Below the pieces are notes generated by a model that was not told the DNA's origin, ran no database searches, and was given only the letters and a program-made list of their open reading frames with translations. A DNA stretch of 64,000 nt from Vogesella margarita (lineage in GTDB: Bacteria > Pseudomonadota > Gammaproteobacteria > Burkholderiales > Chromobacteriaceae): the NCBI RefSeq assembly GCF_028548475.1, contig NZ_JAQQLE010000001.1, forward strand, positions 310,001-374,000, read 5' to 3'. The translations under genes and the position numbers were made by a program. Shown here piece by piece: positions 1-61,769 of this stretch. Position 1 is the stretch's first letter, and the number at the start of each line of letters is the position of its first letter.

Positions 1-402
1 GCGGGCTTCCAGTACCTCGATCGACGGCGGCAGGATGAATACCGACACCGCGTCCGGGAATACCTCGCGCACCTGGCGCGCGCCCTGCCAGTCGATCTCC
101 AGCAGGATGTCGCGGCCTGCGGCCAACCTTTCGCGCAGCCAGCGCTTGCTGGTGCCGTAGTAGTTGCCGTAGACCTCGGCGTACTCGAGGAAATCGCCGG
201 CGGCGATCATGTCTTCGAACGTGGCGCGATCGGTAAAGTGGTAGTGCCTGCCGTTTTCCTCACCGGCGCGCGGGGCGCGGGTGGTATAGGACACGGACAG
301 TTCGACACCGGGTTCGGCTTGCAGCAGCGCGCCGACCAGGGTGGTTTTACCGGCGCCGGACGGGGCGACCACGATGAAAATCGTGCCGTTTGTTTGCGAC
401 AT
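1..402 (-). CDS. gmk: Guanylate kinase, 3' part cut off by window edge
   Basis: Phosphorylates GMP to GDP with ATP in the cytosol. The first 134 residues are visible. They begin [21 protein letters not shown], with the P-loop APSGAGKTT at about residues 13-21. The GMP-binding stretch [21 protein letters not shown] follows, then YGNYYGTSK and the [13 protein letters not shown] strand. The ATG at 402 has AGGAAG a few bases upstream on the minus strand. The gene is divergent from the adenine permease gene. A copy of the 13-bp dispersed repeat (118-130) is read through as codons for E-R-L-A-A-G. The stop codon lies outside the window. Confidence 0.95.
118..130 (-). repeat. 13-bp dispersed repeat (AAGGTTGGCCGCA), copy in gmk
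   Basis: Exact copy on the minus strand, in frame inside gmk and encoding part of RLAAG. It is one of at least 22 exact copies in the window (see findings). Confidence 0.85.
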
Positions 403-568
403 GAGGCTTCCTGCCAACGATCGAAAATAATATTTCAGGATACCACAACGACCATTGATTGGTTAAGTGCCACACCCGGCGCCCATCTCGCCGAGCGTGA
501 AACAGGCGTTTCAGTTAAAATCGCCCGCTTTGCCAGAAACTTGTCTGCGTATTTTGAGGGAGCACAAA

Positions 569-1864
569 ATGCTGCTGGAAAGCTTTTTCAAGCTGAAAGA
601 GCACGGCACCGACGTGAAAACGGAGGTCATCGCCGGCTTTACCACCTTCCTGACCATGGCCTACATCGTCATCGTCAACCCGGCGATCCTGTCGCTCACC
701 GGTATGGATTTCAACGCCGTCTTCGTGGCCACCTGCCTTGCGGCGGCGCTGGGCACCGGCATCATGGCGCTGGTCGCCAACTATCCGATCGCGCTGGCAC
801 CGGGCATGGGCCTGAACGCCTACTTCACCTTCACCGTGGTGCAGGGCATGGGCGTGCCGTGGCAGGCGGCGCTGGGTGCGGTGTTCATCTCCGGCATCGT
901 GTTCCTGGCGGTGAGCCTGTTCAAGGTGCGCGAGGCCATCGTCAACGCCATTCCGCAGTCGCTGAAGTTCGCGATCTCGGCCGGTGTCGGCCTGTTCCTC
1001 GCCATCATCGCGCTGAAGAATGCCGGCGTGGTGGCTGATCATCCGGCCACGCTGGTGACGCTGGGCAACCTGCACGACCCGAAAGTGCTGCTCGCCATCC
1101 TCGGCTTCTTCATCATCGTGGCGCTGGAATACCGCCGCGTGCATGGCTCCATCATCATCGGCATCCTGGCGGTGACGGTGCTGTCGGTGGTGCTGGGGCT
1201 GTCCAATTTCGAAGGCGTGGTGGCGCCGGTGCCGAGCATGGCGCCGACCTTCATGCACATGGATCTGCAGGGCGCGATGAGTGCCGGCCTCCTGGGCGTG
1301 ATCTTCGTGTTCTTCTTCGTCGACCTGTTCGACACCACCGGCACCCTGGTCGGCGTGTCGCACCGTGCCGGCCTCTTGGACAAGGACGGCAAGCTGCCGC
1401 GCCTGAAGCGCGCGCTGATGGCCGACTCGATCGCCATTACCGCCGGCGCGGCGATGGGCACCTCGTCCACCACCGCCTATATTGAATCGGCAGCGGGCAC
1501 CGCCGTCGGCGGCCGTACCGGCCTCACCGCGCTGGTGGTGGCCATCCTGTTCCTCGCCTGCCTGTGGATCTCGCCGCTGGCGAAGACCGTCCCGGCCTAC
1601 GCCACCGCGCCCGCGCTGTGCTACGTCGCGGTGCTGATGACGCGCGGCCTGGCCGAGATCGACTGGGACGACCTGACCGAATCGGCGCCGGCGGTGATGA
1701 CCGCGGTGGCGATGCCGTTCACCTTCTCCATTGCCGACGGCATCGCCTTCGGCTTCATCAGCTACGCCGTGATCAAGATCCTGGCCGGCCGCTTTGCCGA
1801 CCTGAAGCCGGCGGTACTGGTGATTGCCGTACTGTGGGTCGTGAAACTGGCATTCTTCCACTAA
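569..1864 (+). CDS. adeP: AdeP/AzgA-type adenine (purine) permease, NCS2 family
   Basis: Inner-membrane proton symporter for purine bases. The 431-residue protein is hydrophobic throughout, with 12-14 predicted membrane segments, and is collinear with E. coli AdeP. Shared blocks are FKLKEHGTDVKTEVIAGFTTF at the N-terminus, LAPGMGLNAYF, VDLFDTTGTLVGV, and GTSSTTAYIESAAG with VGGRTGLTA. I chose the ATG at 569 because it has GAGGGAG at the right distance and matches family N-termini; an in-frame ATG at 467 would add an unlikely 34-residue tail. The apt gene starts 12 bp after the stop, so import and salvage of adenine are probably co-expressed. The exact substrate (adenine versus guanine/hypoxanthine) is inferred from this pairing. 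Confidence 0.9.
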   Translation: MLLESFFKLKEHGTDVKTEVIAGFTTFLTMAYIVIVNPAILSLTGMDFNAVFVATCLAAALGTGIMALVANYPIALAPGMGLNAYFTFTVVQGMGVPWQAALGAVFISGIVFLAVSLFKVREAIVNAIPQSLKFAISAGVGLFLAIIALKNAGVVADHPATLVTLGNLHDPKVLLAILGFFIIVALEYRRVHGSIIIGILAVTVLSVVLGLSNFEGVVAPVPSMAPTFMHMDLQGAMSAGLLGVIFVFFFVDLFDTTGTLVGVSHRAGLLDKDGKLPRLKRALMADSIAITAGAAMGTSSTTAYIESAAGTAVGGRTGLTALVVAILFLACLWISPLAKTVPAYATAPALCYVAVLMTRGLAEIDWDDLTESAPAVMTAVAMPFTFSIADGIAFGFISYAVIKILAGRFADLKPAVLVIAVLWVVKLAFFH

Positions 1865-1876
1865 GGCACCGAATTG

Positions 1877-2434
1877 ATGGAAAACCTGAGCAATCTGGAC
1901 TACGCCAGTTACCTGAAGGGCTGGATCCGTACCGTACCGAACTGGCCGAGCGAAGGGGTGATGTTCCGCGACATCACGCCGCTGCTGCAGAACCCGAAAA
2001 CCTTCCGCATGCTGATCGACATCTTCGTGCACCGCTATATGGGCGAGCGCATCGACGTGGTGGCGGGGCTGGACGCGCGCGGCTTCATCATCGGCTCGGT
2101 GCTGGCCTACGAGCTGAACGTCGGCTTCGTGCCCATCCGCAAGAAGGGCAAGCTGCCGTTCACCACCGTGGCCGAGGAGTACGAGCTGGAGTACGGCAAC
2201 GCCACCGTGGAGATGCATACCGACGCGGTGAAGCCGGGCGACCGCGTGGTGCTGATCGACGACCTGATCGCCACCGGCGGCACCATGATGGCCGGCTACA
2301 AGCTGCTGCAGCGCCTGGGCGCCGAGGTGGTCGAGACTGCCGGCATCATCGAGCTGCCGGAGCTGGGCGGCGGCGAGCTGATGCGCGATCTGAACATCCC
2401 GCTGTTCACCGTGTGCTCGTTCGACGGCCACTGA
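1877..2434 (+). CDS. apt: Adenine phosphoribosyltransferase
   Basis: Converts adenine plus PRPP to AMP, the salvage step for adenine brought in by the upstream permease. The protein has 185 residues, normal for Apt. Visible motifs are [18 protein letters not shown] near the N-terminus, [13 protein letters not shown], and the PRPP-binding loop [16 protein letters not shown] at about residues 120-135. The start is either the ATG at 1877 or a TTG immediately before it at 1874; ATG is preferred. A terminator hairpin follows within 25 bp. Confidence 0.96.
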
Positions 2435-60465: not shown

Positions 60466-60710
60466 GATAGCAGTCTCGGTTTTGATATGGGCGCGAGTTT
60501 GCCGCAATTGCCGGCACGATGTCTAGTATTTGACGTATTTCAAACGCTCGTTTGTTTTTTGGTGCGGCGAAAATTTGTCACGCTCCGGAGTCAAAACCCG
60601 GGTGCCACTTCCCGCCGCACGGCAGCTTGCCGCCTTGTCGCCGGCGATGACTTGATCTGGGGCAAGTGATGCCGCCGGCGGAACGCTGTGCGGCAATCGT
60701 GCTCGAAAGG

Positions 60711-60716
60711 TATAAT
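60711..60716 (+). promoter_or_regulatory. Candidate -10 box of queA
   Basis: TATAAT 28 bp before the preferred queA start; no clear -35. Confidence 0.5.
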
Positions 60717-60743
60717 CCGCCGGTTTCCCAGAAGATGCCTGTC

Positions 60744-61769
60744 ATGCTTGTTTCCGATTTCGATTACCACCTGCCCGAACACCTGATTGCCCAGCATCCG
60801 CCAGCCGAGCGCGGCGGCAGCCGTCTGCTGCGCGTCAACGGGCGGGTGTTGCAGGATGATCACTTTTCCGCCATTGCCGACGCCCTCGACGCCGGCGACG
60901 TGCTGGTCTTCAACGATACCCGCGTGATCAAGGCGCGCCTGTTCGGCGAGAAGGCCAGCGGCGGCAAGATCGAGGCGCTGGTGGAGCGGGTGCTGAACGA
61001 GCACGAGGTGCTGGCGCATGTGCGCGCCAGCAAGTCGCCCAAGCCGGGCACGCGGCTGGTGTTTGCCGGCCGCTGGCAGGCGGAGATGGTCGAGCGTGCC
61101 GGCGAGCTGTTCAAGCTACGCTTCCTGGATGCGGCCAACGTATTCGATATCCTCGATGCCTCCGGCAAGCTGCCGCTGCCTCCTTATATCGAGCGCGATA
61201 CCGACGGTGACGACGACGAGCGCTACCAGACGGTGTACGCGCGGGAGAAGGGCGCGGTGGCGGCGCCGACCGCCGGTCTGCACTTCACCGGCGCGATGCT
61301 GCAGACGCTGCGCGACAAGGGCGTGACCCTGGCCAGCGTGACGCTGCACGTCGGTGCCGGCACCTTCCAGCCGGTGCGGGTGGAGAACATCGCCGAGCAC
61401 AAGATGCACAGCGAGATCTACGACATCCCGCAGGCGACGGTGGACGCCATCGACGCCGCGCACAAGGTTGGCCGCAAGGTGCTGGCGGTAGGCACCACCA
61501 GCATGCGCGCGCTGGAATCGGCGGCGCGGCCGGACGGCGTGCTGCGCGCCGGTCGCGGCGAGACCGACATCTTCATCACCCCCGGCTACCGCTTCAACGT
61601 GGTGGACAGGCTGCTGACCAATTTCCACCTGCCCAAATCGACGCTGCTGATGCTGGTGTCGGCGTTCGCCGGTTACGAGGAAATGCGCGCCGCCTACGCC
61701 CACGCGGTGGCGCAGGAATACCGTTTCTTCAGCTATGGCGATGCCATGCTGCTGACCCGCAAGGAGTAA
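60744..61769 (+). CDS. queA: S-adenosylmethionine:tRNA ribosyltransferase-isomerase
   Basis: Makes epoxyqueuosine in tRNA anticodons from 7-aminomethyl-7-deazaguanine, 341 residues. [26 protein letters not shown] at the start, [41 protein letters not shown] and [17 protein letters not shown] are QueA signatures. The start at 60744 fits the family; ATG 60735 or 60666 would extend it. A repeat copy at 61464-61476 encodes K-V-G-R-K. DUF971 follows after 4 bp. Confidence 0.96.
61464..61476 (+). repeat. 13-bp dispersed repeat, copy in queA
   Basis: Exact copy in coding sense, read K-V-G-R-K. Confidence 0.85.

Follow-up and report, generated by a model that had tools for sequence, protein, structure and literature searches.

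A candidate DNA uptake sequence with a CCG core in Vogesella

A repeated word in a 64-kb stretch of Vogesella margarita

A short DNA word recurs along a 64,000-nucleotide stretch of the Vogesella margarita genome (contig NZ_JAQQLE010000001.1, positions 310,001 to 374,000; hereafter the window), where we examined it as a candidate DNA uptake sequence (DUS). The 13-mer AAGGTTGGCCGCA is present in 22 exact copies, 12 on the plus and 10 on the minus strand, each at the position listed by an earlier sequence-only reading that had proposed an uptake or genome-marking word. Its estimate of a near-zero chance expectation was borne out: 100 dinucleotide shuffles of the window held no exact copy, and with up to two mismatches there were 47 sites against a shuffle mean of 2.45. 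Pieces of the AAGGTTGGCCGCA/GTTGGCCGCA word took the top ranks in a de novo word count of the window, the strongest unit being the 10-mer core GTTGGCCGCA, with 40 copies where an order-3 Markov model predicts 0.36. The 5′ AAG of the 13-mer varies more than this core. Another string, AACGTTGGCCGCA, occurs seven times, four of them due to the palindrome TGCGGCCAACGTTGGCCGCA.

The sites are given below in window coordinates. All are exact matches; the 13-mers were placed with gene calls from a shadow-aware codon-model caller written for this analysis and left uncurated, the pair at 16974..17003 was assigned by terminator scan and folding, and the palindromes were also folded.

118..130, minus: 13-mer in a gene, sense
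2498..2510, plus: 13-mer, left arm of an inverted pair between convergent genes
2517..2529, minus: 13-mer, right arm of the pair begun at 2498..2510
5749..5761, plus: 13-mer in a gene, antisense
13961..13973, minus: 13-mer in a gene, antisense
16974..16986, plus: 13-mer, left arm of an inverted pair, terminator-like with T-rich tail
16991..17003, minus: 13-mer, right arm of the pair begun at 16974..16986
17149..17161, plus: 13-mer, intergenic, convergent
19444..19456, plus: 13-mer in a gene, antisense
20439..20451, minus: 13-mer in a gene, sense
22326..22338, plus: 13-mer, intergenic, convergent
26574..26586, minus: 13-mer, intergenic, tandem genes
28015..28027, plus: 13-mer, intergenic, tandem genes
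29882..29894, plus: 13-mer, intergenic, divergent genes
40157..40169, plus: 13-mer, intergenic, tandem genes
46870..46882, minus: 13-mer, intergenic, convergent, touching a gene end
49805..49817, plus: 13-mer in a gene, sense
51536..51548, minus: 13-mer in a gene, antisense
54426..54438, minus: 13-mer in a gene, antisense
56543..56555, minus: 13-mer in a gene, sense
56846..56858, plus: 13-mer in a gene, antisense
61464..61476, plus: 13-mer in a gene, sense
7131..7140, minus: core GTTGGCCGCA outside a 13-mer (as are the cores that follow)
10042..10051, minus: core
13322..13331, minus: core
14866..14875, plus: core
21522..21531, plus: core
23884..23893, minus: core
24644..24663, both strands: two abutting cores, minus then plus, forming the 20-bp perfect palindrome TGCGGCCAACGTTGGCCGCA
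26221..26230, minus: core
33188..33197, minus: core
35534..35543, plus: core
39039..39058, both strands: two abutting cores that form the 20-bp TGCGGCCAACGTTGGCCGCA again
41505..41514, minus: core
42615..42624, minus: core
47854..47863, minus: core
61130..61139, minus: core
62935..62944, plus: core

Eleven of the 22 13-mers in the window are intergenic, as the sequence-only reading had noted, although only 10.8% of the window is non-coding. It had also remarked that copies in genes use different frames, and the 11 in-gene copies indeed fall into four phases: two in sense phase 0, three in sense phase 2, one in antisense phase 1 and five in antisense phase 2. The conserved flanks that it had named as the mark of a mobile repeat did not appear. 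C or A tends to precede the 13-mer and A is mildly preferred after it, and the flanks are otherwise near background composition. Because the flanks are not conserved, the copies do not look like remnants of one mobile repeat family. A restriction-modification or methylation site could be suspected from the GGCC within the core, but an asymmetric word of 10–13 bp is longer than usual sites, which moreover tend to be avoided in genomes. Both of these explanations, mobile remnant and modification site, are very unlikely.

The word is genus-wide and has dialects

Across the whole V. margarita genome (G000; 3.33 Mb in 26 contigs) we found 951 exact 13-mers, 466 on the plus and 485 on the minus strand, against none for the reversed control, which is the genome-wide excess that the sequence-only reading had asked about. 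The word marks this genome about once per 1.4 to 3.5 kb. We then surveyed 61 genomes of the family, 13 from Vogesella (g1) and 48 from nine other genera (g2–g10), the comparison with relatives that it had also suggested. All 13 Vogesella genomes carry the 13-mer (379–960 copies), and the 48 others hold 0–7 copies each. The genome-marking half of the original proposal therefore stands, with 951 copies and a genus-wide spread; uptake is a probable function as judged from sequence. The assignment to the genus agrees with PilM, which is 94–97% identical to that of Vogesella indigofera, V. alkaliphila and V. fluminis and 74% identical to that of two Crenobacter.

A wider pattern, GTTGGCCGMR, was scored as in excess at 294 or more copies and at least 4-fold over its reversed control. 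It occurs 2303 times in the V. margarita genome (691 per Mb; reversed control 42) and is in excess in 23 of the 61 family genomes, with 2164–3107 copies in Vogesella and 294–2348 in ten others from six genera. By genus, the excess was seen in 13/13 genomes of g1, 1/10 of g2, 2/2 of g5, 2/2 of g6, 1/1 of g7, 1/1 of g9 and 3/3 of g10, and in none of the 19 of g3, 4 of g4 and 6 of g8. The remaining 38 genomes have 53–245 copies, at most 3.4-fold over control. Presence of the word is thus not cleanly split by genus, g2 being mixed with one word-bearing genome in ten. One g10 genome (G047) has 294 copies, near the word-less range, where its two congeners have 1018 and 1236; its assembly is 84% complete, and either this or a decaying word would account for the low count.

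De novo word counts in 72–80 kb from each of five further Vogesella and from ten genomes of the nine other genera gave essentially one word form per sampled genome. The six sampled Vogesella have the CA form; GTTGGCCGAA (AA type) was found in five samples, from g6, g7, g9, g10 and genome G010 of g2; and GTTGGCCGAG (AG type) was found in the g5 sample. These forms, whose genus-specific differences sit at positions 9–10, follow phylogenetic groups, again with g2 mixed. No word beyond tandem repeats and background emerged from the samples of G002 (g2), g3, g4 and g8, and none was present at two Crenobacter loci (L147 and L148, about 21 kb each). The strings AGCCCAGCCCA and AGAGACAGAGA in G002 and CTACTCCCTA in G033 were rejected as words, because their listed copies are local tandem repeats, with the exception of one additional AGCCCAGCCCA copy. 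The 10-bp core, the sister words of other genera and the departure from a CTG core all go beyond the sequence-only reading.

Outside the family, 386 genomes of the order had at most 223 copies of GTTGGCCGMR, the highest density being about 46 per Mb compared with 691 in V. margarita. Several of them exceeded their controls, up to about 5-fold at low counts (82 versus 16 in G123, 139 versus 31 in G288). A class sample of 368 genomes besides G000, three of which it shares with the order sample, had at most 72 copies of GGTTGGCCGMR compared with 1442 in G000.

Within Vogesella two groups can be told apart, G050 and G054–G060 on one side and G000, G049 and G051–G053 on the other. The 13-mer makes up 40–42% of GTTGGCCGMR copies in the group whose ComP proteins are 84–87% identical, and 15–19% in the group with 37–52%; judged from these sequence figures, a dialect split is possible. 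Separately, a second dispersed word, GCTTAAGCA, in part the palindrome TGCTTAAGCA, occupies 14 distinct sites in 80 kb of G045 (g9; L116–L119), with 18 matches counted by strand versus 0.37 expected; its flanks are unrelated by eye, and it resembles the palindrome HIP1.

Copies concentrate in convergent gaps and form hairpins

Placement was surveyed over 464 kb, comprising the window and 400 kb more of the same genome, with uncurated gene calls. Intergenic DNA, 12.5% of this total, holds 92 of 154 13-mers and 163 of 322 cores. By gap type, convergent gaps (12.7 kb) hold 48 13-mers, tandem gaps (28.5 kb) 37 and divergent gaps (16.2 kb) 7. Inverted 13-mer pairs no more than 20 bp apart number 12 in plus/minus and 8 in minus/plus order, and 19 abutting core pairs form the palindrome TGCGGCCAACGTTGGCCGCA.

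The two inverted pairs of the window fold better than their shuffles (z −6.1 and −5.7). The pair at 2498–2529 gives an RNA hairpin of −32.8 kcal/mol (z −6.1) that the terminator scan does not flag; the one at 16974–17003 is terminator-like with a T-rich tail. The two 20-bp palindromes fold less strongly (z −4.1 and −2.6). In total the terminator scan found 14 such sites compared with 11.9 in shuffles.

The strong enrichment in convergent gaps and the better-than-shuffled hairpins could also be read, uptake being itself a deduction, as the mark of an element unrelated to uptake that is kept by a chromosome-associated protein or by use in terminator stems; the cyanobacterial palindrome HIP1 is a comparable genome-marking element. 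Yet 62 of the 154 13-mers in the 464 kb are in coding sequence, terminators need no fixed sequence and only one of the two inverted pairs in the window is flagged as terminator-like. The word is also asymmetric, and genus variants at positions 9–10 better fit a diverging receptor. We regard such an element as improbable.

A short, asymmetric and abundant word might instead be a strand-oriented recombination or segregation site resembling Chi, KOPS or FRS. Strand use contradicts this reading, being even in every block: cores are balanced in three blocks of the V. margarita genome (69/65, 69/79 and 18/22), and no word-bearing block of 64–80 kb showed a strand bias with p < 0.05, the lowest value being 0.076. 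A site of this kind is hardly credible. Cores are spaced slightly more regularly than random, on average 1440 bp apart with a coefficient of variation of 0.86 and a longest gap of 5.9 kb.

The core is retained between Vogesella genomes

We aligned the window to homologous stretches of six Vogesella genomes, 24–43 kb each. At 95–96% identity (G049, G053), retention is 20 of 24 for intergenic cores (local controls 57–58%) and 23 of 28 for coding cores (local controls 56–62%). At about 81% identity (G059, G050, G060, G054), 14 of 29 intergenic cores are kept versus 1–3% of local controls, and 17 of 39 coding cores versus 16–23%; intergenic retention may be inflated, because local alignment may favour words in diverged gaps. 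G060 is weak, with 1/6 and 1/4 cores kept. In a smaller comparison, 6 of 7 cores survived in each of three named Vogesella.

A ComP-like minor pilin and its neighbours

The sequence-only reading had recommended a search for ComP-type minor pilins, and the genome encodes one. Two pilins score above the cut-off of the Pfam ComP_DUS model (27.3 bits). The candidate ComP (C1:11030-11467; 48.9 bits) has as its best Protein Data Bank match 2nba, over the C-terminal domain (E 4.3e-10), and also matches 2m3k and 5hz7; according to passages of PMC4906244, 2nba is ComP of N. subflava and 5hz7 the meningococcal ComP. The other, on C10, has the top ComP_DUS score in the genome (71.4 bits) and was rejected as ComP, being PilE-like and matching the PilE structure 4noa and no ComP. 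The candidate ComP has two cysteines, as do the ComPs of the three named Vogesella, which apart from the start codon are those of G052, G049 and G051; two cysteines are invariant in 11 aligned family members. The lysine of the ComP motif GxYK was rejected as a tracker of the word, since the word-bearing G010 lacks it.

In V. margarita and four other Vogesella (G059, G054, G050 and G060) the candidate comP adjoins a gene for a FimT-like pilin together with aroB, a pilQ-type secretin gene, pilP and pilM. Pfam supports the neighbours PilM (PilM_2, 429 bits), PilP, the secretin and AroB. No aroB–pil match was found in the fetched comP regions of other genera. ComEC and DprA are both present in the V. 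margarita genome.

A match to the V. margarita ComP at E ≤ 8.7e-17 was found in all 23 word-bearing genomes versus 5 of 38 word-less ones, an association confounded with relatedness because the query comes from Vogesella. Typical ComP proteins are among its best matches in ten f44 genomes. A family ComP profile, which includes two word-less members, matched ComP of three f44 genomes at 99.5% (E 7.5e-23) and the neighbouring pilins that we label PilX-like at 98.2% (E 5.1e-14). ComP-like loci were seen in the word-less genomes G002, G017, G020, G022 and G044 (L139, L140, L133, L063 and L132, respectively), with a FimT-like gene nearby in the first three. The comP match of a word-bearing g10 genome (G048, L045) holds one TAG inside the matched stretch.

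These neighbours raise another possible receptor. The word could serve uptake but be read by a different minor pilin, such as the FimT-like one directly upstream of comP. FimT is a DNA-binding pilin in Legionella, a FimT-like gene adjoins comP in Vogesella and is matched in 16 of the 19 comP regions, 20 kb each, fetched from other genomes (no match in G044, G033 and G039), and ComP-like pilins occur without words. However, FimT-like genes also lie near comP in the word-less G002, G017 and G020, and FimT therefore predicts the word no better than ComP does. Moreover, ComP is the pilin for which a DUS preference was measured in Neisseria, as passages of PMC4906244 report. We consider a receptor other than ComP unlikely.

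Apart from the word, the window carries open reading frames of 1042 and 1040 amino acids at 10097-13225 and 43677-46799, distant paralogues with 66–76% DNA identity in short stretches.

Interpretation

We put at about three in four the probability that GTTGGCCGCA, in many copies part of the longer AAGGTTGGCCGCA, is the DUS of Vogesella, with a ComP-type pilin as receptor. Type IV pili with this minor pilin would bind free DNA bearing the word, which would then be brought in for ComEC- and DprA-dependent transformation. If word-bearing DNA were taken up and recombined more often, the word would accumulate and persist genome-wide, kept above all where it is harmless to proteins, that is, in convergent gaps, where it may also serve in terminator stems. 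GTTGGCCGAA and GTTGGCCGAG would be dialects used in related genera, and a separately diverged ComP would presumably recognise each of them.

Several observations weigh against this interpretation. The PilE-like pilin outscores the candidate ComP on the ComP_DUS model, so that the domain is not decisive, and the FimT-like neighbour barely reaches the Pfam GspH cut-off (21.0 bits). In a 23-row pilin tree (in which the row g9_G045 is a neighbouring pilin and not that genome's best ComP match) the deep branches, ComP versus PilX-like pilins, are not separated. For V. indigofera ComP, AlphaFold gave a poor model (pLDDT 55.8), too uncertain for searching. Since genera that lack the word have ComP-like pilins too, presence of the gene is no predictor of the word; of 14 control genomes, 12 also match ComEC and 10 DprA. 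Passages of PMC4906244 describe Neisseria ComP as having a DD region and two disulfides from four cysteines and as contacting DNA there; the Vogesella ComP has no DD region and two cysteines in place of four. The Vogesella 12-mer agrees with its nearest Neisseria dialect at 8 of 12 positions (p 0.07–0.09). At about 81% identity the full 13-mer survives at 1 of 12 intergenic sites and 2 of 14 coding ones, in coding sequence no better than its control (7–17%), and it would therefore be the core alone that is maintained. Open-licence literature yielded nothing on Vogesella with uptake sequences, and only unrelated items on Vogesella with natural transformation.

More tentatively, and on balance with some doubt, a CCG-core DUS and a two-cysteine ComP may go back to the ancestor that Chromobacteriaceae and Neisseriaceae share, giving rise to at least three dialects and being lost in several pilin-bearing genera, with the CTG core and DD region gained only in Neisseriaceae. 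If so, sequence-guided DNA uptake would be older than Neisseriaceae, and the CTG core would be a property of one lineage's receptor and not of the mechanism. According to passages of Frye et al. (PMC3630211), BLAST detected no ComP in C. violaceum, and DUS is inferred to have arisen after the Chromobacterium split; the non-CTG words suggest an older date, and they occur in a family in which that work found none. The word-less sister genera may be natural losses, and in those with ComP-like pilins either loss or a change of specificity is possible. Non-CTG words in several genera, together with a minimal ComP, would offer natural variants for studying how a pilin reads DNA. We predict that freshwater Vogesella are naturally transformable and that the word could tag transforming DNA.

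Comparison with known uptake systems

On the genomic criteria that could be applied here, the Vogesella word behaves like a DUS. As in the Neisserial system described in the passages cited below, it is a word of 10–12 nucleotides in strong genome-wide excess, with dialects that follow clades and a ComP-type minor pilin. Neisserial DUS also form inverted pairs tied to terminators, paralleled here by the 12 plus/minus pairs, the enrichment in convergent gaps and the pair at 16974-17003, and the abutting-core palindromes recall the overlapping dyad pairs of the Simonsiella muelleri DUS (PMC3630211). The stretch GS[FY]KLTxTxWPxLP is common to the Vogesella pilin and Neisseria ComP (2nba, 2m3k, 5hz7).

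The sequence of the word differs. Eight DUS dialects, all with CTG at +6 to +8 and A at +10, are set out in passages of Frye et al. 2013, which also state that CTG is strictly required in N. meningitidis and that five genomes of the wider group (Laribacter, Lutiella, Pseudogulbenkiania and two Chromobacterium) have no obvious DUS (PMC3630211). Passages of a 2024 paper add seven candidate Neisseriaceae 12-mers with CTG at positions 6–8 (PMC11316581). The Vogesella core has CCG at +6 to +8, unlike these dialects; A at +10 is shared by Vogesella and the AA-type samples, whereas the AG type of g5 has G. The CTG form GTTGGCTG[AC]A occurs at 0–3.8 per 100 kb in our samples. A pooled CTG-DUS pattern, as positive control, gave 2443–5648 copies in 10 of 11 genomes of f44, a family that behaves as Neisseriaceae (the exception, G147, had 107), and 482–973 in 11 f1 genomes, 2 to 6 times the reversed control and highest in the word-less G002.

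The frame AGG..G.C.GAA is common to AG-simDUS and the words found here. The AA-type word agrees with AG-simDUS and AG-mucDUS at 9 of 12 positions (p about 0.01) and the AG-type word with AG-simDUS at 8 of 12 (p about 0.07). Because two published DUS features, the CTG core and the DD region, fail, we do not file the Vogesella word as a ninth dialect. A common origin with Neisseria DUS is plausible, and an independent origin from the same pilin family is possible. Among the matches listed in open-licence literature, no title dealt with uptake words in Vogesella or Chromobacteriaceae, and prior work may exist elsewhere.

The uptake signal sequences (USS) of Pasteurellaceae are likewise genome-wide words, often in terminator stems in H. 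influenzae according to passages of PMC5217627. They differ in belonging to another lineage and in their unrelated words, AAGTGCGGT and ACAAGCGGT (given in passages of PMC3630211), which were not among the top de novo words of our samples; their predicted receptor is another pilin, ComN/PpdA (PMC12616744).

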